Below, one piece after another: positions 3,585 to 19,504 of a stretch of 64,000 nt of DNA (positions within the stretch are counted from its first letter, which is position 1; each line of letters opens with the position of its first letter). The translations under genes and the position numbers were made by a program. This DNA is from Parasphingorhabdus sp. SCSIO 66989. GTDB taxonomy: Bacteria; Pseudomonadota; Alphaproteobacteria; Sphingomonadales; Sphingomonadaceae. Under the pieces are notes generated by a model, which was not told the DNA's origin, ran no database searches, and saw only the letters and a program-made list of their open reading frames with translations. Location: the NCBI RefSeq assembly GCF_032852305.1, contig NZ_CP136594.1, forward strand, positions 62,001 through 126,000. The letters are read 5' to 3'.

Positions 3585-3654
3585 CCCATAGGTCCTAGGG
3601 TAATACCTCATGATGTGGCATCGACACAAGCTTCTACGACCCTAAGCTTGGCCC

Positions 3655-5028
3655 GTGAAACCAGAGACTTCACAAAAATCACATCAACAAAGCGGGACGC
3701 TCTCTACACCCGCCATGCTTGGCTATTGCGGCGGCAATCTTGGCAAGAATATTCTCGCCGGGTCGCTGGGGTTGTTTCAGCTATACTTTATGACCGATAT
3801 ATTGGGGCTGGCCCCGGCGCTAGCCGGGGTTCTGGTGTTGCTGGCGCTGCTCTGGGATGCGCTGCTCGATCCGCTTGTCGGTCTGTGGTCCGACAGGGTC
3901 TATAATCGTTTTGGCAAATATGGCGCGTTCATTCTGTTGGGAGCGCCGCTCGCCAGTGCCAGCTTTTTGCTGTTCTTCTTCCTGCCCTTTCTCTTTGGTT
4001 CAGATGGTGCAGGTTTCTGGCTCGTGCTGGCGGCACTGCTGCTGTTTCGCAGCTGCTATACCATTTTGGATCTGCCGCATAATGCGCTGATTGCCCGCAT
4101 ATCGCCCGATAGCCGTGAGCGCGGGAAGATTGCGGTAACGCGGTTTTTCTTCAGCTCTTTGAGCATGTTGATGATCAGCGGCGCATCGTTTCTGATCTTT
4201 TCGGATCAGGCAGGCTCAGGCGAGGCCTGGCTGTTTGCTCAGGCGGCACTGGTGGCGGCAGGCATCTCGCTGGCGGTGATGTGGCTGTCATGGCTGTCGG
4301 TTGCACGGCGCGATCGTGCAGGGCCGCGACAAACACGCCGCGAGTCATTCTCCTGGCAGGCGCATCTGGCCGCATTGCAATTGGGTGATGTGCGCCTGTT
4401 GCTGGCGGCAGGGATGCTCGGCGCTTTCGGGCCACCGACTTTCATGCGCATGCTGCCCTATATGAATGTCTATGTCTTTGCTGACGACCGTGCTGTTTCC
4501 ACCGGGCTGCTCGCCATCGTCCTTGGTCAACTGGTGTCGGCACCGGTCTGGGCCTGGCTGTCGCATCGGTGGAACAAGGCCACCACCATGATTGCGGCGC
4601 ACGGCCTGTTGATCCTGGCGATGCTGGCGTTTCTTGTGACGGTAGAGACCGTCGGCCCCATATTCTGGGCGCTGACCTTTGTCATGGGTATTGCCTATTG
4701 CGGTATGTTCTCGATTGTCTGGGGCATGGGCGCAGATGTGATTGATCTGATCGAACTGCGCACCGGGGTGCGGTTGGAGGCGATCCTGATCGGCCTGCTG
4801 GTGCTGGTTATGAAGGCGGGAGAGGGGCTAAGCGGTGCCGCTATTGGCATGGGGCTTGATCTGGCAGGCTTTAGCGGTAACAGCATCAGCGATCAGGGAC
4901 GCAGCGCGATCATCTGGCTTGCCTGCCTGATCCCGATCGTTGCGGCCAGCGGGGCCATGCTGTGTCTCTTTCGCTATTCGCTCAGCCATGCCGAACATGC
5001 GCGCATTCGTGCGGCGCTTCCAGGCTAG
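3655..5028 (+). CDS. MFS transporter of the GPH (glycoside-pentoside-hexuronide) cation symporter type
   Basis: Integral membrane symporter with about 12 helices. The N-terminal LGYCGGNLGKNI and the loop ALLWDALLDPLVGLWSDR match the MFS_2/GPH family (the family of melibiose carrier MelB), which usually moves sugars or glycosides with Na+ or H+. I keep the GTG at 3655; an internal ATG at 3715 (MLGYCGG) sits right at the first conserved segment and could be the true start. It converges on the YdcF-like gene with a 3-base gap and lies near a TonB receptor and a ROK regulator, a setting typical of carbohydrate use. The substrate is unknown. Confidence 0.82.
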   Translation: MKPETSQKSHQQSGTLSTPAMLGYCGGNLGKNILAGSLGLFQLYFMTDILGLAPALAGVLVLLALLWDALLDPLVGLWSDRVYNRFGKYGAFILLGAPLASASFLLFFFLPFLFGSDGAGFWLVLAALLLFRSCYTILDLPHNALIARISPDSRERGKIAVTRFFFSSLSMLMISGASFLIFSDQAGSGEAWLFAQAALVAAGISLAVMWLSWLSVARRDRAGPRQTRRESFSWQAHLAALQLGDVRLLLAAGMLGAFGPPTFMRMLPYMNVYVFADDRAVSTGLLAIVLGQLVSAPVWAWLSHRWNKATTMIAAHGLLILAMLAFLVTVETVGPIFWALTFVMGIAYCGMFSIVWGMGADVIDLIELRTGVRLEAILIGLLVLVMKAGEGLSGAAIGMGLDLAGFSGNSISDQGRSAIIWLACLIPIVAASGAMLCLFRYSLSHAEHARIRAALPG

Positions 5029-5031
5029 ACG

Positions 5032-6336
5032 CTATGGATCCAGCGGGTCGCGGGCATCTCTATGAGTGCTGAGCGGGTTGATGCGGAAGCTGTAATCATA
5101 GGGTGATATCCGTTCAACGAATTCGCGCGGAACATAGCCCAGCTCCTCGATACAGCGGCGGCGGAACTCTTCACTTTGGGCGTAGCGGCTATGGCCGGTA
5201 CTGGTAGAAACCAGCGCCAATTTATCCGTGGGCACGCCATAGCGCAGCATCAGCCGTGCGGCATTGCGAAAGTTGGTGGTGGTATGGCGGGCATAGGGCT
5301 CCATTATGATCGCGGCCTCTGGCACAGCATAGCGTTGCATCAGCACGCGTTTCATCTCCAGCGCCTCATTGATCGGGGTGCGCGCCGGATGGACATTGCC
5401 GCCCGATACAATCAGCAGCGGCGCCAGGCCGGAATGATAGAGCCGCGCGGCATGGGCGAGGCGTATTTTGCCAAAGCTGCCAACGCGCTGCCCCGGCGCA
5501 TCGGGGCCATCGCCCAGCACCAAAATGGCGCTGTAACGAAAGACAGACCAGTCAATCGCCGCCACGGCATTTTGGGCAGCACGGTTGTGATGGCTATGCA
5601 GATCGGGGAAGTATCCGGCATTTTCACGCATATTGACATGCAGCAAATGCAGCGCCGTGCGATAGCCGGGGTCATCAGCCAGGGTGGTTGCATCACCGCG
5701 TGTATGCCGAAGCCAGCCGAGTAACTCGACGGTGAGCTTGGCGAAATCCTCTGATTGCGGATCAAAGGATATCGCATCAATCCGGGGATAGCGTGGTTCT
5801 TCGCCGAGGCCATAAATGGCTATGATATGGTTCTGCGCCGCCACCAGGTCGCGCCAAGCCTGATCGAGCAGCGCGCCATCATCAAGTGCGGCATGTCGGG
5901 CAAATTCACCGCTGGCCCGCATATTTTTGGCAAGCAATGGCAGTGCCGACGATGCATCCAGCGCGGTGCGCAGAACAGAACCGGCCTCCTCAGTCTCATC
6001 GGCTGTCCATTGCAGAGCGCGATATGTGCAGGCCGTATCCGTCCCGCAGCGCTCTACCTCATGGTCTATGCGCCGCACCCGCTCCGCCAGCACCGAGCGC
6101 AGCAGCACATTGTCTGCCAGCATCGGCGCCAGATCTTTGCTGGCAAGCCGGTGCGCCAACGGGAAGACCCGTGAGGCGACCAGCTTCGGATCAGCAAGTG
6201 GCTGCGCAGCAAGATGCGCCTCTGCACTTGCTTGCTCTGCCAGAGCGTGGCCGGGCACGGCACTGCTGCCCAACAGAAGTAGCGCGGCCATTGCTGGTCC
6301 CGCGATTGATGCGATACGTCTCTTGCCTAAATCCAT
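5032..6336 (-). CDS. YdcF/ElyC-like DUF218 domain protein, exported
   Basis: The C-terminal half holds a DUF218 domain: SAILVLGDGPD, the LYHSGLAPLLIVSGG strand-loop, an acidic NEALEMKRVL helix, and EPYARHTTTNFRNA followed by ALVSTSTGHSRYAQ. DUF218 proteins (SanA, ElyC, YdcF) act at the cell envelope, but their chemistry is poorly defined. The N-terminus is a signal peptide (about residues 1-33, ending HALA). The 434 residues include a ~190-residue helical extension not seen in the short members. It is codirectional with the TonB receptor upstream (80-base gap), so the two may share a transcript. Confidence 0.75.
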   Translation of the reverse strand: MDLGKRRIASIAGPAMAALLLLGSSAVPGHALAEQASAEAHLAAQPLADPKLVASRVFPLAHRLASKDLAPMLADNVLLRSVLAERVRRIDHEVERCGTDTACTYRALQWTADETEEAGSVLRTALDASSALPLLAKNMRASGEFARHAALDDGALLDQAWRDLVAAQNHIIAIYGLGEEPRYPRIDAISFDPQSEDFAKLTVELLGWLRHTRGDATTLADDPGYRTALHLLHVNMRENAGYFPDLHSHHNRAAQNAVAAIDWSVFRYSAILVLGDGPDAPGQRVGSFGKIRLAHAARLYHSGLAPLLIVSGGNVHPARTPINEALEMKRVLMQRYAVPEAAIIMEPYARHTTTNFRNAARLMLRYGVPTDKLALVSTSTGHSRYAQSEEFRRRCIEELGYVPREFVERISPYDYSFRINPLSTHRDARDPLDP

Positions 6337-6415
6337 GCCAAACCTTTGCGCCCTATCCCCATTGGCCGGGCGGTGTCTGGCTGGGGATAGCCAGACGCCG
6401 CCCGTATTCCTCGCC

Positions 6416-9028
6416 TCAATAGCGGAAGGTCAGCCCCAGATGGAACTGGCGGCCGATAATCGTTTCGCCAAAGAGCAGATCGAAATTCTCTCCGGTCCAT
6501 TGGCGCCGACGCGAGTTGGTGAGGTTTCGCCCTTCCAGTGAAACGAGGAAATTGTCGGTAATATAGTAGCGCAGAGATGCATCGATCTGCTCAAAGCCAT
6601 CATCGGTGCGGTTGGCGCGGATAAGGAAATCATCGGTATAGTTATAGACGACACGGGCCTCGAAATCACCGGTATTGTAGAACAAAGAGGCGTTGGCGAT
6701 CAGATCAGCCTGCCTTATCCGCCGGTCAAGCGTGGTGCCGTCCAGAAAGGTGGTCTCGCCATCTAGGAAGGTGACATTGCCGGAAAAGCCAAGCCCCTGT
6801 AGCACCGGCGGCAGAAAAGGCATGGTGCCGACATAGGCCTGCAGTTCGAGACCCTGCACCATTGAGTTGGACGCATTGGTGTTCTGGGCAAAGATCACCG
6901 GCTCACCATCCAGCTCCCCCTCGGTTTCGGTGAAGAAGATGTCGCCATCGATCTCCTTGCGGAAGATCGCCGCTGACAACAGGCCCTCGCCATTGTTGAA
7001 ATAATATTCGAGCGAGAGATCGAAATTGTCCGAGATACGCGGTTGCAAGTCGGGGTTGCCGCGGCGGATGCGGCGGATGCCCTCATCGGTCTCCTCTGCC
7101 GGCGTATCAATAGTAGTAACCGCCAGATCATTCGGATTGGGCCGCCCCAGAGTGCGGCTATAGGCACCGCGCAGGAAGAGATTATTCGCCAACTCCCATT
7201 TGACGTTTATTGAGGGCAGGAAATTGTCAAACGAGCCGCTCACCGCCTGGACCTCAGCCTGGGCGCCAGCGCGGAAATCGGTATGCTCATAGCGCACGCC
7301 CGCAATGATATCGAGATTGTCGGTGCGGTAGGTCACCATGCCATAGGCGCCGATAATATCTTCCTCATAGTTGAAATCGGGCGTTGTCGAACGCCGATCA
7401 TCACGCGGTATATTGAGCGAGTCAAAGAACGCGTTCACCGCCTGACCATCATAGAAAAGGAAAGCATCGGGCGAATAATCCGAAGTAAAATTGTCATTGG
7501 CGAGCAGCGGAGCCAGAGAGGTGTTGGCCGAGAGTTCGTTGAACTCGTCTGCCGAGAAACGAAATTCCTCATTGTCGCGCACACGTTCAAGATTACGATA
7601 GGCAATACCCGTCTTGAAGCCAAAGCCGCGATCACCGGCGAGATTATTATAGCCGATGTTCATCAACGCATTGAGCACCTGCTCATCCGTGTTGAGATCA
7701 CGCTGGCGGATAAACGACAGCGCATAGTTTTCCGGATCGCGGAAATAGGACGGATCATTGAAGGTTGAGCGTGTCGGCACCGTGGTCGAGGCGTCGATAT
7801 CCACCCCGAGCTCCGGCACGAATGGTGTGCGGAACACCAGCGCCGGGGTGTCATGGTCAAAATTCTGCTCGGCCCAGCCAATATCGGCATCAAAATTGAC
7901 CCGGTCGCCGATCAGCGCCTCAAAATGGCCCTGCACGCCAAAACCCTGGGTGCGGATTGGGAAGTCATCAAAGTTGAGCTCCATCCGGCCATTGGCAAGC
8001 TGCGCCTGATCAGGGCCGGTTTCGATCAGATCATTGGCGGAGAAGCGCAGATTGTTGCGATATCGAACCTCATTTTCCTGTTGGCGATAAAAATAACCGC
8101 CAACCGAGGCATAGACATCATTCTTGCTATATTCGAACTTGCCATTGCCGCCATAGCGCTCCTGATTGTTGGAGGTCAGCGAGGAATCAAAGCGGGTCGG
8201 CGGTGTGACATTGTCAAACCGGTTTTCAATGCCGCCTACAGTAAACAACCGGTCCTGTTCGCGCGGCCGCTGGCCATAAAGGCCTGTAAGGACAATGCCG
8301 AATTCATCCTCTGCGCCGAAACGCTGCGAAAAGGTGCTTTCGAGACGGAAGGCCTGCTCCTGCTCATCTGAATCCTCTGCAATATCATTGGCGGTAAAAT
8401 AGCTGCCGGTGACTCGCGCTACCAGAAAGGTTGGATCATCTGAGTCAAAGGCCGAGCGAGTGACAACATCGACATAGCCGCCGATCGAACTGCCATCCAT
8501 ATCGGGTGTGAAGGTCTTGTAGACATCCAGCCGCTTGACCGCTGTTGACGGGAAGAACTCGATATTCACATTGCGCCCGCCACCGCCAAAGGAGCCGGAC
8601 GATGGTACGCCAATGCCATCAAAGGTGACATAGTTGAGATTGGCGTCGATGCCACGCACATTGACGAAACGGCCTTCATCCTCGTCAAATTCGGCGGCAA
8701 CACCGGGAATCCGGCGCAGCGCGTCGGCGACATTGAAATCGGGCACCGCCGCGATCTCATCCTGTGACAAGGAATCGGACACGACGTCGCGTTCGACCTT
8801 TTTATTAAGCTCTTCCCGACCCCTTGCGCGGGTGCCGGTGACCACGATGGTTTCGCCCTGAATGATGCCTTCCTCGCCAGAAGCATCCTCAGCCGTTTCG
8901 TTCTGCTCAATATTGTCTTCGGCGTTTTCGCTATCGCCATTGTCTGCGGCCTGTGCGGGGACGGCCATAGTCCATGCCATCGCGATCAGACTGCCACCCA
9001 GTATTCGGTAGAAATGCTGCTTTCTCAT
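6416..9028 (-). CDS. TonB-dependent receptor (Caulobacter/Xanthomonas carbohydrate-type subfamily)
   Basis: Outer-membrane active transporter of 870 residues. It has a signal peptide (AVPAQA), an acidic linker, a TonB box-like ETIVVTGTR and a plug domain (VADALRRIPGV, VNVRGIDANLNYVTFDGI, IGGYVDVVTRS). A long beta-barrel ends in the terminal Phe/Tyr strand HLGLTFRY. The layout matches the large TonB receptors of Caulobacter and sphingomonads that import oligosaccharides. I chose the ATG at 9028 because GGGGGA lies four bases upstream; an upstream ATG at 9043 lacks this. The ROK regulator and an inverted repeat directly upstream suggest sugar-responsive control. Confidence 0.9.
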   Translation of the reverse strand: MRKQHFYRILGGSLIAMAWTMAVPAQAADNGDSENAEDNIEQNETAEDASGEEGIIQGETIVVTGTRARGREELNKKVERDVVSDSLSQDEIAAVPDFNVADALRRIPGVAAEFDEDEGRFVNVRGIDANLNYVTFDGIGVPSSGSFGGGGRNVNIEFFPSTAVKRLDVYKTFTPDMDGSSIGGYVDVVTRSAFDSDDPTFLVARVTGSYFTANDIAEDSDEQEQAFRLESTFSQRFGAEDEFGIVLTGLYGQRPREQDRLFTVGGIENRFDNVTPPTRFDSSLTSNNQERYGGNGKFEYSKNDVYASVGGYFYRQQENEVRYRNNLRFSANDLIETGPDQAQLANGRMELNFDDFPIRTQGFGVQGHFEALIGDRVNFDADIGWAEQNFDHDTPALVFRTPFVPELGVDIDASTTVPTRSTFNDPSYFRDPENYALSFIRQRDLNTDEQVLNALMNIGYNNLAGDRGFGFKTGIAYRNLERVRDNEEFRFSADEFNELSANTSLAPLLANDNFTSDYSPDAFLFYDGQAVNAFFDSLNIPRDDRRSTTPDFNYEEDIIGAYGMVTYRTDNLDIIAGVRYEHTDFRAGAQAEVQAVSGSFDNFLPSINVKWELANNLFLRGAYSRTLGRPNPNDLAVTTIDTPAEETDEGIRRIRRGNPDLQPRISDNFDLSLEYYFNNGEGLLSAAIFRKEIDGDIFFTETEGELDGEPVIFAQNTNASNSMVQGLELQAYVGTMPFLPPVLQGLGFSGNVTFLDGETTFLDGTTLDRRIRQADLIANASLFYNTGDFEARVVYNYTDDFLIRANRTDDGFEQIDASLRYYITDNFLVSLEGRNLTNSRRRQWTGENFDLLFGETIIGRQFHLGLTFRY

Positions 9029-9098
9029 AATTTCCCCCATCACTGCGCCATGGCAGAAACCCCGGCGCTTCTCTCAGGCAGGGAAAATAGAGATTCGT

Positions 9099-9125
9099 TA
9101 TTAAACTTAAGTGACAAGTTTAATA
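9099..9125. promoter_or_regulatory. inverted repeat upstream of the TonB receptor, candidate operator
   Basis: The perfect 10-base arms TATTAAACTT and AAGTTTAATA are separated by 7 bases. The repeat lies between the end of the ROK gene and the start of the TonB receptor gene, in an AT-rich stretch about 70 bases before the receptor start. Size and position fit a regulator-binding site; the adjacent ROK protein is the obvious candidate. There is no T-run after it in the ROK direction, so it is less likely to be a terminator. Confidence 0.5.
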
Positions 9126-9128
9126 TTA

Positions 9129-10241
9129 TTATTCGAGCTGCCCCGAAAACTCATGCAGCGGTAGATAGGCCGCTCCCATGGCGGTAACCGCGCTGCCCAG
9201 GGATGATGCGTGCAATTTTGGCGCGGGACGCTCTGAAAAGCTGCCAAACAGGCTCGGCGCGTCCATGGCCGACACCAAAGCCTCGAGCAGCTCGGTCGGC
9301 AGCGCGCCCGACAGATGGATACTGTCAGGGTCAAACCAGGACCAGGCCGATTCCACGAGCTCTGCCAGTTGTGGCCCTGCCCGCTCTGCCCATTGTGCGC
9401 CCATTGCCGCCTGATCGCTATCGCCCCAGTTCATTGTCTCCAGCGAGGGCAGCTCCAGCCCCCGCTCGGCCATAAAGCCAAGCAGATCAGTGCCTGACGG
9501 CCGCGCCTTATCGAGCGGGAAAAACGCGCCTATCTCTCCGGCATTGCCATGGCCGCCGCGAAACGGTCGTCCCTCCAACACCAATCCGCCGCCAATGCCA
9601 TAGTTGATCAGCAGCGTAATCAGGCAGCGGGTCTCGCTCGGCGCATGATAATACTCCGCCAAGGCCGCCGCGGTGGCATCATTCTCCATAAAACAGGGCA
9701 GGTTCAAAGCTTCTGAGAAATAGGCAGTAAGGTTGATATCGCGCCATGAGGCATGCTCATCGACAAGCCGCATATGCTCATGATCGGCAAAGAAATACCC
9801 CGGTACCGCGAATCCCAGACCCAAGATCCGATCAGCGTCAAACAGCCGCACCTTGCGCGAAATCTGATCGATATGCTCCTGCACCAGCATCGCCACTGAC
9901 TCCGGTCCATTGCTGGGCATATCGGCAATGTGATCATCCACCAGCGCGCCGGTAAAATCCACGGCAACAATGCGAATACGCCCCGGCGACATCGCCACAC
10001 CAAAGCTCAGCGCACCACCGGGCTCAAGCTTCAGCGGAAGCGCAGGCTGCCCCCGGCCGCCCCGAATACGTTCCCCCTCACCGATAAGCCCGGCAAGCAA
10101 GAGGTCACGCGTCAACTGGGTAATCGGCCCGGAGCCCAATCCTGAAATCTTGCCTAAAGCCGCGCGGGTCACCGGCTGATGCTGACGGATTAGCCGCAAC
10201 ACACGGCGATGCGATTCATTGAGTTTAAGCGAGAGAGCCAT
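9129..10241 (-). CDS. ROK-family transcriptional regulator
   Basis: Residues 1-60 form a winged helix (HRRVLRLIRQHQPVTRAALGKISG), followed by a ROK actin-like fold with ENDATAAALAEY (keeping the catalytic-type Asp) and HGNAGEIGAF. The glycine-rich ATP loop of ROK kinases is degenerate (GVAMSPGRIRI in place of a GGT-type loop), and the CxCGxxGC zinc motif is absent. I therefore infer a sugar-sensing repressor or activator (NagC/Mlc/XylR type) without kinase activity. It sits just upstream of a TonB receptor on the same strand and is flanked by inverted repeats on both sides. Confidence 0.85.
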   Translation of the reverse strand: MALSLKLNESHRRVLRLIRQHQPVTRAALGKISGLGSGPITQLTRDLLLAGLIGEGERIRGGRGQPALPLKLEPGGALSFGVAMSPGRIRIVAVDFTGALVDDHIADMPSNGPESVAMLVQEHIDQISRKVRLFDADRILGLGFAVPGYFFADHEHMRLVDEHASWRDINLTAYFSEALNLPCFMENDATAAALAEYYHAPSETRCLITLLINYGIGGGLVLEGRPFRGGHGNAGEIGAFFPLDKARPSGTDLLGFMAERGLELPSLETMNWGDSDQAAMGAQWAERAGPQLAELVESAWSWFDPDSIHLSGALPTELLEALVSAMDAPSLFGSFSERPAPKLHASSLGSAVTAMGAAYLPLHEFSGQLE

Positions 10242-10245
10242 GCAT

Positions 10246-10277
10246 CCTTGAAGCCAATATGTGATTATACTTCAAGG
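10246..10277. promoter_or_regulatory. inverted repeat just upstream of the ROK gene, candidate autoregulatory operator
   Basis: Arms CCTTGAAG and CTTCAAGG are separated by 16 bases and begin five bases before the ROK start codon. The core ACTTCAAG resembles the AACTTAAG core of the repeat at 9099-9125, which suggests (inference) one regulator for both sites. Confidence 0.45.
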
Positions 10278-10375
10278 TTAATTTTAAAATATGGATATTG
10301 CTCGGCTGCCTGTTGGTATGCTTTGGTGTTGGAGAAAGGTACTCAGGTTACAAATTTTGTAATGCACAACTCCAC

Positions 10376-13015
10376 TCAAAGAGCGCGGCGATACGCTTCT
10401 GAGACCGCGTCTTTGCGATTTTCAACTTCGAGTTTCGCAAAGATATTCTTGAGGTGATGCTTCACCGTTTCTGGTGACACGCCAAGATTGCGAGCGATCA
10501 GCTTTGTCGGTTGTCCTTTTGCCAATTCCGCCAGCACATCGCTTTCCCTTGGCGTGAGGAGCTTGGCAAGCTTTGCGGAATGCATGGACTCATCCCATAA
10601 GCTCAGAATTGTCGTGAGATGCGCATCGTTCGCATCATCAATATGGGCTGTCCGCATCCCCTCAAGAACAGGTGCGAGATTAAGCGATAGATCGAAATAG
10701 GGCCTGACTATTCCCGCATTGTGATGGACTGCCAGCGATCTTTCCAGACACAAGCGCGCCGCCTCTTCGTCTCCCATCTGTGTATAGGCTCCAGCCATTG
10801 CGATTCGCGCGAGCTCGGCGGTTAAGACCCGCCCCATTTGTTCGGCGCGCCGACAGATTTCTTGTCCAAGCACGAGCAATTCTTGCGGTTCCTCTCTTGA
10901 CAAGTGCAGGTTTGATGACGACCGCAGAAAAGCCTCTACAAATATCCAGTTCCAATGGGCGTGCTGTCGCTCTGCCTTCCATGCGCCCACCAGATCACAC
11001 GTCTCATAATGTGCCGCCGCCGCATCGACTTCCCTGCCGCGAACAAGGAGTTCAACGCGCAGCGCATCCAGTGTCGGCAGCATATTGTTGAGCCCATAGA
11101 GTGATCGCTGTTTTATTGTGCGATCCAGATGCTCGATCGCCCGCGGGATAGAGTCCTGCTGGGCAATACAGCGAGTCTTGGTAACATCTCGTGCCTCAAT
11201 CAACTCCATAAAAGTCGCTTCACGCACTTCTGGCACCGCTCTTATATTGGCTTGCGCGTCGTTCAGCCTATCCTGCTCATAAAACATCTTTGCCAGGAAG
11301 CTATTGCCGACGCGTATCAACAGCTCTTCACGGCCGACAAAGCCATCCCAATGGTGCGCGAGATTCTCGCTAAAATACCATGCGGCCCGGTCGAACTCGC
11401 CAGATTGAAAGGCAATCATCCCCAAATGTGGGGAAATGGAAGGCAATTGCGATGAGAAGGCAAGGCGATCACAAACCTCCTCATATTCTGTAACTGTCTT
11501 CTGCGCCTCAATGATCGAACCATGCCGCGCTTCAAGAAAGAATTTGAATGCCAGGAAAAGGCCGAGAATTCTTGGCTCGTCTTCCGATCTGCGGCGAACC
11601 AGCACTTCAATTGCGGGCATGCGTTCCTCAAGAAAGGCATGGATAGGTTCGCAAGCGTCAATCAGCATCGCGCGGCCCAGCTCGACAAGTAACGCCAACT
11701 CCTTGCTATTCAGAAGCAGGTCCTGCGGCTGCTGGTCCAGCAACTGTTGGAAGCGAGGATAGAGATGCTGCGCACCCAATCCGTCTCCCAATGTTATCGC
11801 ACGCAATATCTGCGTACCACTTAATGCAACGCGACCGTCGATGAGAGGCCGTGGCATCTGGCTGAGGAACGACCAGACCTTGGCCGGTCCGTGGCTTAAA
11901 ATGGCCAAGGGTCCGCCAATCTCCTCAAATATCTCAGCGGCAAATTCGGGGTTATGGGCTTCCATCGCATGCTCAATGGCGCGAAAGATATCGCCGCGAT
12001 CGGTGAAATAGCGAGAAGCACGGAGATGAAGCTCTGCTACTGCGCTTGATCCCTTGCGCATCAATGCCTGTTGAAGATACCCCTGCATCACCGGGTGAAG
12101 CTTGAGTGTCAGCACGGGCTCGGTCTGCGAGCTGATGAGCGGGTCAAGCAGGGTAAGTGCCATCAGGGTCGCCTCAGCGCGATCCGTTCCCGTGAGCGCT
12201 TCAGCTATACCTGCATCAATATAATCAATGATCGAGCAATCGATCAGCAAGTCGGCCTGTTCCTTAGGCAGCGTCCCGACGACCTCTTCTGCAAGAAAAC
12301 CAAATAGTTCTGAATGTGGCCGCAGCAGATTCTCGACAAGGTGCGCATTGCCGCCTGGCTGGCTGGCCTTGATGCGAGCAAGCTGCAGCATCATCGGCCA
12401 CCCCTCGGACACCTCCAAAACACGCGTTATCGTTGCATTGTCGCAGGTATCTCCAAGCAATTCGCGTGTTTCCGTATCCGAAAGCGCCAACGCCGCAGCA
12501 TCAATGGCCGTGGCTGTTTCATCGAGAAGAAACCGCGCCAACCGTGCTTCATCAAAATGGCGCGAAGCGAGCAAAACGCGATGCCCATCGGGCAGCAATG
12601 TGACCAACAACTCGATAACAGAATAGGCCTCTTCGCCTGCAATGCGCTCGAAATCATCAATGACCAGCACCGACGGCTCGGATTTGTTCTCTAAGGTCGC
12701 GATGATCGCTGAAATCGTTGGCCGACATTCGGCAAATGCCGTGTCTGAACGTGCCAGAGCCAGCCGCAAAGACTGGACAAAGTTCTCCGCTTCGGAATCG
12801 GAGTTCTCACAGGTCAGCCATGCCAGTGTTGCACCTTGATACTCAAATCTGGCACCGATCTGGCCTAACAGCGTGCTTTTGCCAAAGCCGCCCGGCGCCA
12901 GCAAAATTGTGAGCGGATAATCTGTTCCTGAGACTATGCGATTAACCAGAGCTTGTCTGAGCACCTGATTGCGCAGCACTTTGGGCGGACGATATTTGCG
13001 CTCTTCCACTTTCAT
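10376..13015 (-). CDS. MalT-like LuxR-family ATP-dependent transcriptional regulator
   Basis: Large STAND-type activator of 879 residues. Residues 40-48 are a Walker A loop (APGGFGKST), a Walker B-like VLVIDDFE follows near 125, and a long helical repeat region fills the middle. Residues 820-879 are a LuxR helix-turn-helix (LTPRESDVLAEL ... KLIARNLGVSPETVKHHL). MalT-type proteins bind ATP and an inducer, oligomerise and activate nearby operons. I take the ATG at 13015, since the family start KYRPPK follows at once and GGGGGA lies upstream; a frame opening at 13123 adds 36 unlike residues. It is divergent from the TonB/amidohydrolase/HyuA/DUF917 operon and is its likely activator. Confidence 0.88.
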   Translation of the reverse strand: MKVEERKYRPPKVLRNQVLRQALVNRIVSGTDYPLTILLAPGGFGKSTLLGQIGARFEYQGATLAWLTCENSDSEAENFVQSLRLALARSDTAFAECRPTISAIIATLENKSEPSVLVIDDFERIAGEEAYSVIELLVTLLPDGHRVLLASRHFDEARLARFLLDETATAIDAAALALSDTETRELLGDTCDNATITRVLEVSEGWPMMLQLARIKASQPGGNAHLVENLLRPHSELFGFLAEEVVGTLPKEQADLLIDCSIIDYIDAGIAEALTGTDRAEATLMALTLLDPLISSQTEPVLTLKLHPVMQGYLQQALMRKGSSAVAELHLRASRYFTDRGDIFRAIEHAMEAHNPEFAAEIFEEIGGPLAILSHGPAKVWSFLSQMPRPLIDGRVALSGTQILRAITLGDGLGAQHLYPRFQQLLDQQPQDLLLNSKELALLVELGRAMLIDACEPIHAFLEERMPAIEVLVRRRSEDEPRILGLFLAFKFFLEARHGSIIEAQKTVTEYEEVCDRLAFSSQLPSISPHLGMIAFQSGEFDRAAWYFSENLAHHWDGFVGREELLIRVGNSFLAKMFYEQDRLNDAQANIRAVPEVREATFMELIEARDVTKTRCIAQQDSIPRAIEHLDRTIKQRSLYGLNNMLPTLDALRVELLVRGREVDAAAAHYETCDLVGAWKAERQHAHWNWIFVEAFLRSSSNLHLSREEPQELLVLGQEICRRAEQMGRVLTAELARIAMAGAYTQMGDEEAARLCLERSLAVHHNAGIVRPYFDLSLNLAPVLEGMRTAHIDDANDAHLTTILSLWDESMHSAKLAKLLTPRESDVLAELAKGQPTKLIARNLGVSPETVKHHLKNIFAKLEVENRKDAVSEAYRRAL

Positions 13016-13022
13016 CTGTGCG

Positions 13023-13052
13023 CATCCCCCAAGGTTCTCGGCACATCCCCCA
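13023..13052. promoter_or_regulatory. two direct CATCCCCCA repeats, MalT-box-like, in the divergent regulator/TonB intergenic region
   Basis: CATCCCCCA occurs at 13023-13031 and again at 13044-13052, exactly 21 bases (two helical turns) apart. On the minus strand these read TGGGGGATG, close to the MalT box GGGGATGAGG of enteric bacteria. The copy nearest the regulator also serves as its Shine-Dalgarno region, which would couple binding and autoregulation. The rest of 13016-13291 holds no gene; the receptor ribosome site is GGGAGGG near 13277. Confidence 0.4.
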
Positions 13053-13291
13053 CCTGCATTATTGCGCAAGATGCGATCATGCGACGACAAAGACAAGTAG
13101 GGGAAAGAAGATGGGACCAGCATGGTTGTTTAAGGCGGAAGTTCACCGTCATTTTGGACCAAACATCCCATTTTGTGTGACCCGTGCGTCGCCGCTGATC
13201 ACTACTGAGGCAATAGCCTCAAAATCTTATGCTGCGACCGGGTCAGGCTCCAAAGAGCCGAATTGAATTGATCAAGGGAGGGATCAAAATC

Positions 13292-15430
13292 ATGAGAAAC
13301 TCTAAATTGCTTTCAGCTTGCAGTGTGTTCGCACTGATTGCCTATCCGGGCCATGCATTCGCTCAGAGCAGCGAGCCTGCGGAACAAGAAGCGGAACAGG
13401 AGGCCGAAGACACGCAATACGGCAATACGATTATTGTCACAGCGCAGCGGCGTGAGGAGAATCTTCAGGAAGTTCCTGCGCAGATCACTGCCTTTACCGC
13501 GGACATGATCGAAGACGCCAGCATCAGGTCGACGCAGGATTTTGTTAATCTCACACCCAACATGTCGCTCGACAGTTCAGACACCTATAACAACACCTTT
13601 GTGGTGGTGCGCGGTGTAACCCAGATCAACAATGCCGATGCACCGGTTGCGATCGTCATCGATGGCGTGCCGCAGAATGATCAGAAGCAGTTCAACATGA
13701 ATCTGTTTGATGTTGAGCGGATCGAGGTGCTCAAAGGGCCTCAAGGCGCGCTTTATGGCCGTAATGCCATTGGCGGCGCGGTCAACATCGTGACGCGTGA
13801 GCCGACCGACTATCTCTCTGGCTTCGCCATGGCGAGCTATGGCCGAGGCGATGCGGTCAATCTGTCGGCGGGCATTTCCGGGCCTCTGGGCACCGACAAT
13901 ATCAAATTCCGCCTCTCCGGTGTCTATGTCACCGATAATGGCCGGATCAACAACACTTTCGCCAATGAGAACGTGGATTTTGTCGACCACGATTATACCA
14001 TCCGCGGTCGGATCACGGCCGATGCTGCTGATTGGCTCGAACTTGATCTGAGAGGATCTTACCGTGACTTCGATGCTGGAAGCCAGTTCGACTCCGTCGT
14101 GTTCAGCGGCGATGCGAATGATTTTGTTAATCCGCAAAACAATCTGATTGGCTTCACAACCGGCGAGCAATGGGACCTCACATTCAAAGCCGATGCGGAT
14201 TTGGGCTTTGCAACCCTGACCAGCATCACCGGTTATAATGACGTATCCGAGGTTAATCGTGGCGATCTCGACTTCCGCAACCCGGTCGACAGTCCCGGTG
14301 GTTTTCTTGGCCTGGGCATCCAGGTCGGGCAAGGCCAGGATCGCTTTGTCGAACTGTTCAGCCAGGAATTGCGCTTCACTTCACCCGATGATCAACCTGT
14401 GCGCTGGATTGCCGGGGTCTATTATCTCAATACCCAAAGAGCGTTGCGCACACGGGGTTTCGTTGACCTTGATGGAACGTTCGAACAGATCGATAATCCA
14501 GCGCTTTTGCTGATCGATCGACAGGAAGCGAACGAGTTCGACTCATACGCCGTATTTGGTCAGCTTGACGTTGACTTGACGGACTCGCTCACCCTGTCGG
14601 CTGGCCTGCGCTATGACCGGGATGATCGTGAACAAACTGATCTTGCAACCAATAATGTGCGCTCCGCCTCCTATGATTCAGTGCAGCCAAAGGTCACTCT
14701 GACGTATAATTTTGACGACGAAAAACTGCTCTATGCCACGTATGCGACCGGCTTCCGCTCCGGCGGTTTCAACGCTCCGGGCGTCGCTTTGGATAGCTTT
14801 GAGGATGAAACACTCGAAAATTTTGAGGTTGGCTTCAAAACCACGCTGGCTAACGGGAAGCTGCGCTTTAACGGTGCGGCCTATCTCTCAAATGTCAATG
14901 ATTTCCAGTTCTTCTTTGTTGAGGCAGCAACGGCCTCGCAGATTATCTCCAACATCGACAGGGTGCGGTTGTTCGGTTTTGAACTTGAGGCCCAGTATTT
15001 CCCGCGTAGCGACTTACAGTTTTTCGCCGCTTTGGGCAGCACCGACAGCGATATCAGGGAAATCACTGTCTTTCCCGGAAATGAAGGTAATCGCACACCG
15101 AAGACCACGCGCTATACCGTCAATATGGGGGCGCAATACACGCCAGAATTGAGCGATGATCTCGATGGCTTCTTCCGCATCGACTATGAGCATCGCGGTG
15201 ATCGTTTCTGGCAAGTTGATAATGTAGACGTGCAAGAGCCGCTTAATTTGCTCAATTTCAGGCTCGGGATCGAGAATGACACCTTCGGTGTCTATTTCTG
15301 GGGCAAGAACATCACAGGAGAGAGATTCTTCACCGACTTCAATCCGCGCGAATTCTCCGGGCTTGATATTGATATCGGCTTCCGGGGACAGCCCGCAACA
15401 TATGGCGTAGAAGCCCGCTTCAACTTCTAG
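13292..15430 (+). CDS. TonB-dependent receptor of the hydantoinase-type operon
   Basis: Outer-membrane transporter of 712 residues. The signal peptide covers residues 1-24 (ending AFA-Q), followed by a Glu-rich linker, TonB-box-like NTIIVTAQRREE and a plug domain (IRSTQDFVNLTPNM, VVRGVTQINNADAPVAIVID, VEVLKGPQGALYGRNAIGGA-type sequence). The barrel ends in YGVEARFNF. It belongs to the smaller sphingomonad subfamily with the RREENLQEVP start. I chose the ATG at 13292, which has GGGAGGG upstream. It is the first gene of an operon with an amidohydrolase 13 bases downstream, so it probably imports that pathway's substrate. Confidence 0.9.
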   Translation: MRNSKLLSACSVFALIAYPGHAFAQSSEPAEQEAEQEAEDTQYGNTIIVTAQRREENLQEVPAQITAFTADMIEDASIRSTQDFVNLTPNMSLDSSDTYNNTFVVVRGVTQINNADAPVAIVIDGVPQNDQKQFNMNLFDVERIEVLKGPQGALYGRNAIGGAVNIVTREPTDYLSGFAMASYGRGDAVNLSAGISGPLGTDNIKFRLSGVYVTDNGRINNTFANENVDFVDHDYTIRGRITADAADWLELDLRGSYRDFDAGSQFDSVVFSGDANDFVNPQNNLIGFTTGEQWDLTFKADADLGFATLTSITGYNDVSEVNRGDLDFRNPVDSPGGFLGLGIQVGQGQDRFVELFSQELRFTSPDDQPVRWIAGVYYLNTQRALRTRGFVDLDGTFEQIDNPALLLIDRQEANEFDSYAVFGQLDVDLTDSLTLSAGLRYDRDDREQTDLATNNVRSASYDSVQPKVTLTYNFDDEKLLYATYATGFRSGGFNAPGVALDSFEDETLENFEVGFKTTLANGKLRFNGAAYLSNVNDFQFFFVEAATASQIISNIDRVRLFGFELEAQYFPRSDLQFFAALGSTDSDIREITVFPGNEGNRTPKTTRYTVNMGAQYTPELSDDLDGFFRIDYEHRGDRFWQVDNVDVQEPLNLLNFRLGIENDTFGVYFWGKNITGERFFTDFNPREFSGLDIDIGFRGQPATYGVEARFNF

Positions 15431-15443
15431 GTCGGGGCAGACC

Positions 15444-16679
15444 ATGTCATTCGCTCTCACAAACTTTCGCCTGTTTGATGGCGAGAACCTTCTGGACGGC
15501 TTGCATCGGGCGGTTGTGGTTGAAGGCGATCGCATTGCTGACATCTATGACAGCGTGGAGGCGCTGTCGCCCGAGGTTGAGCGCATCGACCTGAACGGCT
15601 CCACCTTGATGCCGGGCCTGATTGATGCGCATTTTCATTGCAACAGCCCTTCGCTCGATGTCGGGTCGATCGACCATTTGCATCCCTCGCATCTGGCCCA
15701 ATTTGCGCGCGAACATCTTGAATCCATGCTCAATCGTGGCTTCACCACAGTGCGAGACGCGGGCGGGGCGGATTACGGCTTGGTCAAATCCATCGAGGAA
15801 GGCCTTATCAGCGGGCCACGGCTGTTCATTGCCGGCCGTGCTATCTCGCAAACAGGCGGGCATGGCGATTTGCGCGCAGCGCATGCATTTGAGCCTTGTG
15901 GGTGCGGCTATAAGGGTGTGCTCGCAATGGTCGTCGACGGCGAAGATGCCATGCGCGCCGCCGTGCGCAATGAACTGCGCAAGGGCGCGCATCAGATCAA
16001 ATTATTTGTTTCCGGCGGCGTGCTTTCGCCGACCGATCCCATCTGGATGGACCAGTTTACCGATGTCGAGATCAAAGCAGCGGTTGAAGAAGCGGAACGC
16101 TGGCGCACCTATGTCATGGCGCATTCGCATACTGCTGAGGCATCAACCCGATGCTCGGTCAATGGCGTGCGCTCAATTGAGCATGGTACTTTGATCGACG
16201 CTGAGGCGGCAAAAATCATTGCTGATCATCAGACATATGTTGTCCCGACAATCTCGGTCATGCAATCGCTGGGCGAAGAGGTCAAAACCCTGCCACAGGC
16301 GGCGATGGATAAGCTGGACCGACTCCTCGATGAAGCAGGTGAAGCGATTGCCCATTGTCACAAGGCGGGGGTCAAGCTTGGCCTGGGAACCGACCTTTTC
16401 GGGGAATTGCACGGACGCGAGCTGAACGAGTTTACCGCGCGGGCGCAAATTGACGGCGCGCTTAACGCCTTGCGCTCGGCAACCAGTGTCAATGCCGAAG
16501 TCATGGACATGAAGGGCCAAATCGGGGTGATCCAAAAAGGCGCATTCGCAGACATGATCGCCATAGACGGAAACCCGATTGAGAATATTGGCCTGTTCGA
16601 CGATCCGGACAACACGATCAGAATGATCATGCGCGGCGGAAAGACCATACGAAACACATTGGACTGCGGAGTAGCCTGA
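15444..16679 (+). CDS. metal-dependent amidohydrolase (imidazolonepropionase/Xaa-Pro dipeptidase-like)
   Basis: Cytosolic TIM-barrel amidohydrolase with no signal peptide. The metal ligands are visible: HxH at residues 63 and 65 (DAHFHCN), a candidate carbamylated Lys 186 (HQIKLFVSGG), His 227 or 229 (AHSHT), His 247 (EHGTL) and Asp 317 (LGTD). The C-terminal GVIQKGAFADMIAIDGNP is typical of the cyclic-imide and peptidase amidohydrolases. Members cleave C-N bonds in rings or peptides; the exact substrate is not readable. It lies between a TonB receptor and a HyuA-type gene (1-base gap), so a hydrolytic step in the same pathway is likely. Confidence 0.85.
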   Translation: MSFALTNFRLFDGENLLDGLHRAVVVEGDRIADIYDSVEALSPEVERIDLNGSTLMPGLIDAHFHCNSPSLDVGSIDHLHPSHLAQFAREHLESMLNRGFTTVRDAGGADYGLVKSIEEGLISGPRLFIAGRAISQTGGHGDLRAAHAFEPCGCGYKGVLAMVVDGEDAMRAAVRNELRKGAHQIKLFVSGGVLSPTDPIWMDQFTDVEIKAAVEEAERWRTYVMAHSHTAEASTRCSVNGVRSIEHGTLIDAEAAKIIADHQTYVVPTISVMQSLGEEVKTLPQAAMDKLDRLLDEAGEAIAHCHKAGVKLGLGTDLFGELHGRELNEFTARAQIDGALNALRSATSVNAEVMDMKGQIGVIQKGAFADMIAIDGNPIENIGLFDDPDNTIRMIMRGGKTIRNTLDCGVA

Positions 16680-16680
16680 A

Positions 16681-18261
16681 ATGACCAAAGCCTCGAACGG
16701 ACGCTCTTCAGCGTCAAAACTCCGACTGGGCATTGATGTCGGCGGAACGAACACCGATGCGGTTCTGATGGACGGTGATAATGTCGTCGGCGCGGTCAAG
16801 CGCGCGACATCTGAAGACATTGCACAAGGCGTGATCGACGCGGTCACCGCCTTGCTAGACGAGACGAGCTCGTCTCCGTCCGAGGTGTCTCGGGTGATGA
16901 TCGGGACGACGCAATTTGTGAACGCCTTTTTGCAGCGGCGCAATCTGGCCCGCACCGCCGTTTTGCGCGCGGCTTTGCCAAAAACAGACGGGGTTCCGCC
17001 CAAGGTGTGCTGGCCCGAGGATCTGCTGGCGAAGATCGGCCATAATGTGCACATGGTCGAGGGCGGCGCTTTCTACACCGGCAAGGATTATCGCACGCTG
17101 GATACAGATGCGGTCGCCAGAATTGCAGCGCAACTGGTGGAAGACGGCGTTGAGTCTCTGGCAATTTCCAGCGTCTTCGCCCCGATACGGCCCGATCTTG
17201 AAGAGGCGATTGCAGATATAGTGGCTGACATCGCCCCCGGCATAGCGATCACAAAGTCTGCCGATCTCGGCGGTGTGGGGCTGGTAGATCGAGAGAATGC
17301 GGCCATCATCAATGCAAGTCTGGTGCCTTTCGCGCATCAGGTGGTCGCTTCGATGCAAGGCGCATTTCGTGACATGGGGTTCGCGGTCAGTCCCTTGTAC
17401 AGCCAGAATGACGGTACGTTGATTACCGGAGAGCGCGCCGAGGCCTTTCCGATCCTGACATGCGCGGCGGGACCGACCAACTCGATCCGCGGTGCCGGTT
17501 TCCTGACCGGCTCGCAAGATGCCGTCGTTGTCGATATTGGCGGCACCACCACGGATATCGGGTTTCTCACCAAGGGGTTTCCTCGGGAAACTTCCAGTGC
17601 AAATTACATTGGCGGCGTCCGCACCAACTTCCGCATGCCGGACATATTGTCGATCGCGCTGGGCGGTGGATCGCATGTGAAGACCGATGGCGACAACATC
17701 TCGATTGGCCCTGAATCTGTTGGCTTCCGCTTGACAGAAGAAGCGATGATCTTTGGTGGAACGGCCACCACGGCGACGGATATTGCGGTCGGCTCGGGCC
17801 TTGCCAGCTTGGGCGATGTCACCAAGGTCCAGTCTCTGCCGGATGATCTATTGAAGCAAGCGGTCGGCATGATGCAGCACATGGTTGAAGATGCCATCGA
17901 CCAGATGCGTTCGAGTGCGAAGCCTATAGACGTGATTTTGGTTGGTGGCGGTTCCATCCTGATTGGCAATGATTTGCGCGGCGCGGCGCGGCTGTTGCGG
18001 CCGGAACATGCAGGCGTTGCCAATGCCGTGGGCGCTGCCATTGCGCAGGTCAGCGGGCGGATCGACAAGCTCTATGACTATGGCGAGGCTGGCCGCGAAG
18101 CAGCGCTTGAGCGTGCGAAGAGCGATGCGATTGCCAACGCAGTCTCCGCAGGCGCGACAGAGAATACAGTCGAAATAGTCGATATCGAAGAACTGCCGAT
18201 GACGCATATGCAAAGTTCGGCAGTGCAAGTGCGCGTCAATGCGGTTGGCGAACTGAGCTGA
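16681..18261 (+). CDS. hydantoinase/oxoprolinase family protein, HyuA-type (stand-alone)
   Basis: ATPase of the acetate-kinase/Hsp70-like fold used in ATP-dependent opening of hydantoin or 5-oxoproline rings. Phosphate-1 loop IDVGGTNTD is near residues 18-26, phosphate-2 DIGGTTTDIG near 284, and a third glycine motif VILVGGGSIL near 418. At 526 residues it is shorter than classic HyuA (~690), and no HyuB partner follows; instead a DUF917 gene starts 16 bases later. This short HyuA next to DUF917 is a recurring arrangement (family knowledge). Its single-base gap from the amidohydrolase indicates one operon. Confidence 0.85.
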   Translation: MTKASNGRSSASKLRLGIDVGGTNTDAVLMDGDNVVGAVKRATSEDIAQGVIDAVTALLDETSSSPSEVSRVMIGTTQFVNAFLQRRNLARTAVLRAALPKTDGVPPKVCWPEDLLAKIGHNVHMVEGGAFYTGKDYRTLDTDAVARIAAQLVEDGVESLAISSVFAPIRPDLEEAIADIVADIAPGIAITKSADLGGVGLVDRENAAIINASLVPFAHQVVASMQGAFRDMGFAVSPLYSQNDGTLITGERAEAFPILTCAAGPTNSIRGAGFLTGSQDAVVVDIGGTTTDIGFLTKGFPRETSSANYIGGVRTNFRMPDILSIALGGGSHVKTDGDNISIGPESVGFRLTEEAMIFGGTATTATDIAVGSGLASLGDVTKVQSLPDDLLKQAVGMMQHMVEDAIDQMRSSAKPIDVILVGGGSILIGNDLRGAARLLRPEHAGVANAVGAAIAQVSGRIDKLYDYGEAGREAALERAKSDAIANAVSAGATENTVEIVDIEELPMTHMQSSAVQVRVNAVGELS

Positions 18262-18277
18262 GGCGGGAGACAGGGCG

Positions 18278-19378
18278 ATGAGCATTATCCAAAACCAGAA
18301 TGACATCCGCGATATGGCACGCGGCGCGGTTTTCCTGGGCGCAGGCGGCGGGGGTGACCCGCAAATTGGGGAGCTTTTTCTGCACAATCAATTGGCGCAG
18401 GGACGCAAGCCAAATATCGTTTCGGCAGAGACACTTGATGATGACGCCTTTGTCGTCTCAATCGCCGGGGTTGGCGCTCCTACGGTTCTGGTCGAATATC
18501 TTGTGAGCGAAGCCCATTTGCTCGACCTGCTTGAGAAAGCCGAGGCATTTTATGGCCGCAAGGTTGATGCCCTGATTTCCGCAGAAATCGGTGGCGCAAA
18601 TTCGATGTTCCCGCTGGCACTCAGCGCGTCCACGGGATTGCCCGTTATTGACGCCGATGGAATGGGCCGCGCATTTCCGCATCTCGAAATGACAACATTC
18701 AGCGTCTATGGCTCCAAGGCAACGCCCGCAATCGTTACCGATGAATTGGGCAATAAGGTCACGCTCGATTTGCTGACAGATCGTCTGGCTGAGGAAACCC
18801 TGAGGCCAGTCGTGGCAGCCCTTGGCGCCATGGTCTTTTCAGCGATCTATCCGATGACGGCGAAATTCGTAAAGGCAAACGCCGTACATGGTTCGATAAC
18901 GCACAGCCTCGCTATCGGCAGATGTATCCGCGAAGGCCGCGACAAGAGCGAAGATGTCTTCGAAACGCTGCTGCAATATCTCAATCAACCCGATGAAGAT
19001 CGTCACGCCAAAATTCTGTTTGATGGCAAGATTGTCGATGTTTCGCACGAAACACGTGACGGATGGCATTGGGGCAAGGCGGTCTTGCGACCGCTCGATA
19101 ACGGTCCGGACGAATTCGAGATCGAGATTCAGAATGAATTTATCATCGCGCGCAAAAACGGCGAGCCAGCAGCAGTGGTCCCCGAGCTTATCATCGTCCT
19201 TGACCGCGAAACAGGTGAACCGATGACCGCAGAGATGCTGCGTTACGGTTTGCGTGTGAAGGTCGTCGGATATAGCTCTGCTGAAATCATGCGCCGCCCT
19301 GAATGTTTGGAGGTCTGGGGACCAAAGGCATTTGGCCTCGACATGGACTTTATGCCCATTTCCGAATGCGTGGCCTGA
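18278..19378 (+). CDS. DUF917 (S-methyl-thiohydantoin desulfurase-like) protein
   Basis: Cytosolic protein of 366 residues with the DUF917 hallmarks: RGAVFLGAGGGGDP near the N-terminus, SAEIGGANSMFPL, and the acidic motif LPVIDADGMGRAFPHLEM. A beta-rich C-terminal domain contains a PELIIVLDRETGEPM segment. The Pfam families are named for S-methyl-thiohydantoin desulfurase, and members nearly always sit beside hydantoinase-type genes, as here. I infer action on a hydantoin-like ring, perhaps a 2-thio or S-methyl form. It is the last gene of the operon; about 125 bases with no recognisable feature follow. Confidence 0.85.
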   Translation: MSIIQNQNDIRDMARGAVFLGAGGGGDPQIGELFLHNQLAQGRKPNIVSAETLDDDAFVVSIAGVGAPTVLVEYLVSEAHLLDLLEKAEAFYGRKVDALISAEIGGANSMFPLALSASTGLPVIDADGMGRAFPHLEMTTFSVYGSKATPAIVTDELGNKVTLDLLTDRLAEETLRPVVAALGAMVFSAIYPMTAKFVKANAVHGSITHSLAIGRCIREGRDKSEDVFETLLQYLNQPDEDRHAKILFDGKIVDVSHETRDGWHWGKAVLRPLDNGPDEFEIEIQNEFIIARKNGEPAAVVPELIIVLDRETGEPMTAEMLRYGLRVKVVGYSSAEIMRRPECLEVWGPKAFGLDMDFMPISECVA

Positions 19379-19504
19379 TTCCCTGTTGCTAGTGTGGCTG
19401 TTGCATGAGCTTCGAGTTTGTTAGGTGGCAGGGTCCCGGCACCGTGCGCTTACTATAGCTTGAATTCTGTTAAGCAGCTCTTCGGTGAATAATTGCCTTG
19501 CTTA

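Follow-up and report, generated by a model that had tools for sequence, protein, structure and literature searches.

The stretch of DNA analysed here, hereafter the window, comprises 64,000 nucleotides of Parasphingorhabdus sp. SCSIO 66989 (NZ_CP136594.1, positions 62,001 to 126,000, forward strand; positions in the window are used below). It carries five genes, encoding a TonB-dependent receptor, an amidohydrolase, a short HyuA, a DUF917 protein and a divergently transcribed MalT-like activator, and comparison with related loci supports the view that they belong to a conserved set of genes that centres on a HyuA-type ATPase and reaches from the outer membrane to the cytosol. Our proposal is that HyuA pairs with DUF917 in an ATP-dependent cyclic amidase of two subunits, DUF917 taking the place of HyuB and using different chemistry. 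The best explanation of the set as a whole, which we hold tentatively, is that it serves, on induction, to take up a small amino-acid-derived cyclic amide and open its ring; the most likely such compound is a 2,5-diketopiperazine (cyclic dipeptide). The features of the gene set are as follows.

10376..13015, minus strand: MalT-like STAND-TPR-LuxR activator, divergent from the operon; 879 amino acids (aa) if the inner ATG is the start, 915 aa with the outermost one.
13016..13291, no strand: divergent intergenic region; two CATCCCCCA copies at 13023 and 13044 are candidate activator sites, as a lead only.
13229..15430, plus strand: TonB-dependent outer-membrane receptor, 733 aa; likely start at 13292 (712 aa, with a signal peptide by eye).
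15444..16679, plus strand: COG1228-type, prolidase-like amidohydrolase, without signal peptide (by eye); His229 replaces the carboxylate-binding Tyr.
16681..18261, plus strand: short HyuA, an ASKHA-type ATPase subunit of 526 aa that stops before the C-terminal barrel of CapA.
18278..19378, plus strand: DUF917 (S-Me-THD_N/_C), 366 aa; proposed HyuA partner subunit replacing HyuB.

Coordinates and Pfam domains agree with an earlier sequence-only reading of this DNA, which had described four same-strand genes separated by 13, 1 and 16 bases (open reading frame coordinates) opposite an 879-aa MalT-like activator. The receptor scores 74.4 bits for the plug (Pfam cut-off 23.9) and 127.2 bits for the beta-barrel (cut-off 27), and stays below the cut-off of the siderophore receptor family TIGR01783 (172.9 versus 223.5 bits). 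The amidohydrolase matches Amidohydro_1, HyuA matches Hydant_A_N and Hydantoinase_A, and DUF917 matches S-Me-THD_N (PF06032, 176.1 bits) and S-Me-THD_C (PF20906, 190.6 bits; cut-off 27). The activator resembles MalT and other STAND-LuxR activators in its LuxR helix-turn-helix (GerE), which lies above the Pfam cut-off, and in matches to the STAND NTPase and to TPR_MalT, both below theirs; it differs from MalT itself in scoring 173.8 bits against the cut-off of 537 of the NCBIfam MalT equivalog NF003420.

Conservation was followed in two sets of loci. The whole-genome set holds 40 loci, picked, mostly as the best-scoring, from 85 DUF917 places; 35 are of the window type and five carry a divergent DUF917 with 27-30% identity to the window copy. 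The named set holds 80 loci from bacteria and archaea, the best 80 of at least 464 relatives. The two sets overlap (L044/L092, for example), and their counts are hence not summed. It should be noted that genes were called by a simple script that may miss or mis-join them, that neighbouring genes took their family names from the clusters they resemble, one to three members of each cluster having been checked against Pfam, and that L146 rests on a single long open reading frame. In the 35 window-type loci we found HyuA in 34, a TonB receptor in 29 (an upper bound, as is the count below, since any receptor in the locus matching that of the window was so labelled), the activator in 25, an NCS1 carrier in 22, a PF01177 racemase in nine, an M19-like gene in five, the amidohydrolase in four and HyuB in three; the five divergent-DUF917 loci have none of these. 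The corresponding counts for the 80 named loci are 76 for HyuA, 33 for the activator, 30 for NCS1, 21 for ATP-binding cassette (ABC) components (omitting cluster k3, which has no Pfam family match), 21 for the racemase, 19 for TonB, six for M19-like genes, three for the amidohydrolase and two for HyuB. TonB and ABC genes occur together in none of the 80 loci, and NCS1 and ABC in one (kinship not corrected). Judging from these neighbours, the inner-membrane step in relatives may often be served by an NCS1 or ABC transporter.

The gene-neighbourhood check with DUF917 and HyuA, suggested in the sequence-only reading, recovered the full five-gene set in six other genomes (L032, L035, L036, L072, L101 and L229). 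The best relative, L032, belongs to a genome of another family (G073, of the same genus as G049), and its proteins are 70% (TonB), 74% (DUF917), 62% (amidohydrolase), 58% (HyuA) and 41% (activator) identical to those of the window. In L230 the TonB-amidohydrolase-HyuA-DUF917 genes stand in the order of the window, with no activator match there, and in L033 and L073 the amidohydrolase lies alongside HyuA and DUF917. The amidohydrolase gene of L036 (8353-9606), which adjoins TonB-DUF917-HyuA and is 62% identical to the window copy, is broken by an in-frame stop. Within the order, a DUF917 protein is present in 58 of 396 genomes.

DUF917 is likely the partner of HyuA. The two are same-strand neighbours in 77 pairs from 68 of the 80 named loci, and in 45 of the 63 pairs with two genes of normal length the genes overlap or abut, in 28 cases by 4 bases. 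HyuA comes first in 65 of the 77 pairs and DUF917 in 12, eight of which are archaeal. Seen from the other side, of 30 copies of the short HyuA, taken from 11 genomes, 22 have DUF917 adjacent and five more have it within 6 kb (27 of 30 in total); two of the three copies without it are fragments at contig ends. This count, uncorrected for kinship, covers 30 of 34 matches; the four omitted lie in G402, a genome outside the DUF917 search, and in two of these, L229 and L230, HyuA adjoins DUF917. The long open reading frames of L094 and L119 were considered as HyuA-DUF917 fusions and rejected, being out-of-frame upstream extensions. The HyuA-DUF917 pair is present twice in five loci (L072, L086, L101, L103 and L104; in L072 and L104 the two pairs lie on opposite strands), which suggests duplication for different substrates.

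Of the three nucleotide loops noticed earlier in HyuA, both phosphate loops (D19, DVGGTNTD; D285, DIGGTTTD) were borne out, and the conserved Lys (K40) is present as well. The predicted structure (pLDDT 89) matches CapA of caprolactamase (6yra) with Z 29.1 over 498 residues and a root-mean-square deviation of 3.6; a subunit of acetophenone carboxylase ties with CapA at Z 29.3, and the closest solved relative by sequence is N-methylhydantoinase 7hk5. The window HyuA thus shares the CapA-type fold, both loops and the Lys with CapAB, N-methylhydantoinase and 5-oxoprolinase, as far as these are described in passages of PMC8453981. Unlike CapAB, it has 526 aa and lacks the C-terminal barrel, its genome has no HyuB/CapB, and the adjoining DUF917 is without conserved His or Cys. 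The model ends at CapA residue 612, before the barrel at residues 623-696; according to passages of PMC8453981, CapB is contacted by helix 418-438 and loop 553-560, and therefore the part that HyuA has lost is not the described contact. That HyuB is missing from the window set had been observed in the sequence-only reading, which thought that it might be supplied elsewhere; this is not so, as PF02538 is absent from the whole window genome. It is because the genome has no HyuB, and because HyuA ends before the CapA barrel, that we propose DUF917 in its place.

The structure prediction suggested earlier for DUF917 (pLDDT 90) gave the fold of CV_3147 (2o3i, function unstated) with Z 39.1 over 342 residues. 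Only 2o3i stands out in this search, and the missing matches to CapB and HyuA carry no weight; profile comparison of HyuA and DUF917 gave no sequence relation. A glycine loop (G23-G26) with P28, and E103, N108, D127, R131, N286 and E287, are invariant in 30 DUF917 sequences. No His or Cys is conserved in more than half of the 30, and the Asp-His-Asp-His metal site of HyuB is not found; therefore, if DUF917 does the job of HyuB, it does so differently. This also bears on whether HyuA and DUF917 may catalyse separate reactions, with DUF917 preceding or following HyuA and acting, for example, on a thio- or imino-ring, a question distinct from that of the substrate. We regard separate reactions as quite possible, though we lean towards a single enzyme: besides the lack of HyuB-like metal ligands, NCBIfam names relatives of DUF917 (S-methyl) thiohydantoin desulfurases, many loci have two DUF917 genes beside one HyuA, and the divergent DUF917 occurs without HyuA in five of five loci, but most gene pairs overlap, the genome has no HyuB, and DUF917 lies far below the desulfurase cut-offs. 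Its scores for the two equivalogs are 102.2 versus 450 bits (NF058532) and 98.5 versus 440 bits (NF058529). The window protein is like the desulfurases in carrying PF06032 and PF20906 at full length and in the fold of CV_3147; unlike them, it scores far below the equivalogs and falls in the HyuA-coupled group, not in the divergent group (L067-L071). Breakdown of thiohydantoin or ergothioneine, considered as the best reading, was rejected because both cut-offs are missed, and nothing usable on it was among the literature matches listed. Of the regulated operon for uptake and ring opening put forward in the sequence-only reading, the conserved gene set stands and its regulation, uptake and ring opening may be as supposed; its thiohydantoin link came from the family name and fails on these scores.

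The activator, of which the window gene is the sole full-length copy in its genome, is linked to DUF917. In 52 genomes we found 75 activator matches at E 1e-15, 39 of them within 20 kb of DUF917 against about 2.4 expected, a linkage that, judged from gene positions, is not due to chance; the remaining 36 copies lie away from DUF917. The activator is present in 22 of 27 genomes with a HyuA-type DUF917, in two of 20 without DUF917 (all from the window's own family, kinship not controlled) and in none of five with the divergent type only. After L032, the next-best match in these genomes scores less than half (333 versus 760 bits). When 16 matches of related amidohydrolases with at least 42% identity were located, nine lay within 20 kb of an activator and four near DUF917. 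Some activators thus pair with related amidohydrolases without DUF917; therefore, the activator family extends beyond this pathway, and it may govern several. The conservation foreseen in the sequence-only reading was found, then, although the regulator family is not confined to the set. MalT-like activators stand near prolidase-like amidohydrolases, away from the DUF917 places identified, at G388:C1 747834-750395, G003:C3 306346-324003 and G046:C23 2743-13410.

As for operator sites, the two CATCCCCCA copies upstream of the activator gene (13023-13052) are 21 bases apart, and two copies are reached in 18 of 100 shuffles, which is not significant alone. Pairs of G-runs 21-22 bases apart also precede the activator gene in L032 and L078. 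MalT-box-like G-runs, a motif chosen post hoc, are weakly enriched in the core intergenic regions (30 seen versus 19.9 in mononucleotide shuffles); in control regions 30 were seen versus 42.3 in shuffles. No 9-mer is shared between the intergenic regions of the window and L032, and promoter and terminator scans remained at or under chance level.

We envisage that the TonB receptor would carry a small cyclic amide through the outer membrane and that a carrier in the inner membrane, of the NCS1 or ABC type in relatives, would bring it into the cytosol. HyuA would then spend ATP on activating the amide of the ring, like CapA in caprolactamase, an enzyme that needs ATP since opening its ring is uphill (passages of PMC8453981). 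DUF917, the usual partner of HyuA in the place of HyuB, would finish ring opening, leaving the amidohydrolase to cleave the resulting linear molecule or a side amide. The operon would be turned on by the STAND activator once it senses the compound or a derivative. The carrier was said to be absent in the sequence-only reading; this holds for the operon, but an MFS_2 (GPH-type) gene lies on the same insertion (see below), and one PTR2 and two SBP_bac_5 genes lie outside the operon elsewhere in the genome, from which NCS1 is absent.

Cyclic dipeptides are our first guess for the substrate, with hydantoins a close second. M19-like genes (Pfam-checked in L039) accompany the set in the five and six loci counted above; of the six, L080 and L091 show 48-51% identity and the other four 26-29%. 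SBP_bac_5/Opp-type ABC genes are found in eight of the 80 loci. L087 (11082-11969) encodes a nitroreductase-DUF6092 fusion, one half of which matches albonoursin synthase (8uc3_A, E 6.1e-14; other nitroreductases tie with it, the best at 2.2e-14) and the other AlbB (8uc3_D, E 7.5e-4). L088 (2230-3006) has such an AlbA-AlbB-like fusion too, about 80% identical to that of L087, which makes two of 80 loci; both are from metagenome-assembled genomes of Chloroflexi. According to passages of PMC11055893, DUF917, PF01177 and dipeptide transporters are enriched around cyclodipeptide-oxidase-like genes. The clusters described there that lack a cyclodipeptide synthase share with our loci DUF917, PF01177 racemases and dipeptide transporters, and a fused oxidase stands beside DUF917 in L087 and L088; they differ in that the window set is without an oxidase gene, that L087 and L088 have a long HyuA, and that those passages do not mention a TonB receptor or STAND activator. 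A further family, k8 (324-402 aa), ends in a nitroreductase domain (checked in L096) and occurs in seven of 80 HyuA-DUF917 loci, including L103, L108 and L140; its N-terminal 150 residues have no Pfam match, and its nitroreductase domain matches nitroreductases, with no AlbA chain among the matches listed.

Several observations, of which the lack of a conserved His or Cys in DUF917 is one, weigh against a cyclic-dipeptide system of this kind. The ABC genes are not of the SBP_bac_5/Opp kind in 13 of 21 ABC loci. The fused oxidases of L087 and L088 lie beside a long HyuA, not a short one, HyuB is present in L088, and L087 ends at a contig edge; L124 (9293-9961), which has a short HyuA, contains the AlbA-like half alone (35% identity) with no AlbB half. 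NCS1 carriers and PF01177 racemases (9/35 and 21/80 loci) fit hydantoins equally well, and in passages of PMC11055893 the authors lean to hydantoins or allantoins. The amidohydrolase is found in just four of the 35 and three of the 80 loci, and its His229 occurs in nine of nine HyuA/DUF917-linked copies aligned (the broken copy of L036 being omitted), with one His and three Tyr in four unlinked controls.

The meaning of His229 follows from the relatives of the enzyme. The closest solved structures are the COG1228 prolidases Sgx9260b/c (3mkv, E 3.6e-86; 3feq/3n2c, E 2.6e-103), and the amidohydrolase shares their metal ligands and oxyanion-type His140. As noticed earlier, it is metal-complete (H63, H65, K186, H227, H247 and D317 form the binuclear site) and, by eye, without signal peptide; it scores below the Xaa-Pro dipeptidase equivalog NF051886 (243.1 versus 500 bits). 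In the relative PmAcy, the metal ligand His253 and the carboxylate-binding Tyr255 are two residues apart (passages of PMC10781821), and in prolidase relatives this Tyr binds the alpha-carboxylate (passages of PMC10781821 and PMC10699109). Unlike these prolidases, the window enzyme has His227 and His229 at the positions of the pair, and the Tyr is not found. The linked clade, to judge by this alignment, probably does not bind a dipeptide carboxylate as prolidases do. Since His229 is present in all nine linked copies, a plain dipeptide may not be the substrate of the amidohydrolase, whose target may be some other amide in the pathway.

A serious alternative, though a doubtful one, is that the substrate is a 5-substituted hydantoin or cyclic ureide, converted by HyuA/DUF917 into an N-carbamoyl amino acid that the amidohydrolase would decarbamoylate. 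NCS1 permeases and Asp/Glu/hydantoin racemases recur beside HyuA-DUF917, and the NCS1 family includes the hydantoin permease Mhp1. An isochorismatase-family gene adjoins the set in L073, a family that includes N-carbamoylsarcosine amidohydrolase. The relationship of HyuA to N-methylhydantoinase 7hk5 points the same way, as does the hydantoinase activity suggested for DUF917 in passages of PMC11055893. However, a hydantoin substrate would not lead one to expect the fused cyclodipeptide oxidase, the M19-like dipeptidases and the SBP_bac_5/Opp ABC genes that some relatives carry, and the annotated neighbours include one M20 gene (L035), with no search aimed at carbamoylases. Two recombinant D-hydantoinases were inactive on nine diketopiperazines, according to passages of PMC3852281 (2013).

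The five genes lie on an insertion that they share with a sugar-type cassette to their left (no strand given).

3585..19504: 15.9 kb insertion with the five genes and the sugar-type cassette, between feoB with the next small gene and the DUF177-to-FtsK block.
3655-5028: MFS_2 (GPH-type MFS symporter), first gene of the cassette, which spans 3655-10241.
5032-6336: DUF218, of the cassette.
6416-9043: TonB-Xanth-Caul receptor, of the cassette.
9129-10241: ROK regulator, of the cassette.

The right-flank block holds DUF177, ubiquinol-chaperone-like, SmpA-like, CorC-like, UbiH-like and FtsK-like genes (named by eye). In the genus-mates G396 and G230, feoB and the small gene after it are contiguous with DUF177 and the rest of the block to ftsK, and neither has a HyuA match at E 1e-40; G230 carries a divergent DUF917 elsewhere in its genome. 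The five-gene set is accessory, because the site is uninterrupted and HyuA is unmatched in these two genomes. Gain of the block is the simplest reading, with loss in both genus-mates as the alternative.

The cassette invites a third possibility for the substrate, namely another lactam or cyclic imide (a lactam-form opine, a pyroglutamyl compound or a secondary metabolite), possibly sugar-bearing and tied to the ROK/MFS_2/DUF218/TonB genes. In its favour are the shared insertion, the ROK and MFS_2 homologues that adjoin the amidohydrolase-DUF917-HyuA genes in L033, and the departure of His229 from dipeptide binding. We consider it rather unlikely, as the cassette genes are rarely matched in 126 loci searched by tblastn: MFS_2 matches in L033 only and ROK in L033, L105 and L115, and neither DUF218 nor, at E 1e-20, the Xanth-Caul receptor has any match. 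A looser protein search labels MFS_2-like genes also in L063 and L066. It could also be held that the neighbourhood is a chance or loose accessory cluster without functional unity, given that the set is absent at this site in two genus-mates and that TonB receptors are common in these bacteria. This is very improbable: the partners are conserved across families, and the linkage counts of the activator and HyuA largely contradict it.

The preferred reading, an inducible system for a small cyclic amide, can be placed against what is described. HyuA and DUF917, and racemases as their neighbours, were known before; the present analysis adds the setting with TonB, STAND and NCS1 genes, the lack of HyuB and the clade with His229. 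The sequence-only reading knew of no characterised case of a TonB receptor and STAND activator with HyuA/DUF917. Searches of open-access literature (subscription papers not being covered) on DUF917/S-Me-THD, on hydantoinase with TonB, LuxR or NCS1, and on cyclic dipeptides with hydantoinase or TonB likewise returned no description of the set among the matches listed. In its strongest form, which we think unlikely, HyuA-DUF917 would be a second ATP-dependent cyclic amidase architecture that opens diketopiperazines in bacteria and archaea, to which Proteobacteria would add a TonB receptor and a STAND activator sensing cyclic dipeptides. Cyclic dipeptides are widespread natural products. The enzymes that hydrolyse them were left open in passages of PMC3852281 (2013). 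A widespread pair of an ATPase and a non-HyuB partner, together with a receptor and a sensor, makes the chemistry directly testable, namely the way in which an activated ring amide would be opened without the metal site of HyuB. The same gene set makes the biology testable as well, namely, which bacteria may live on such cyclic compounds.

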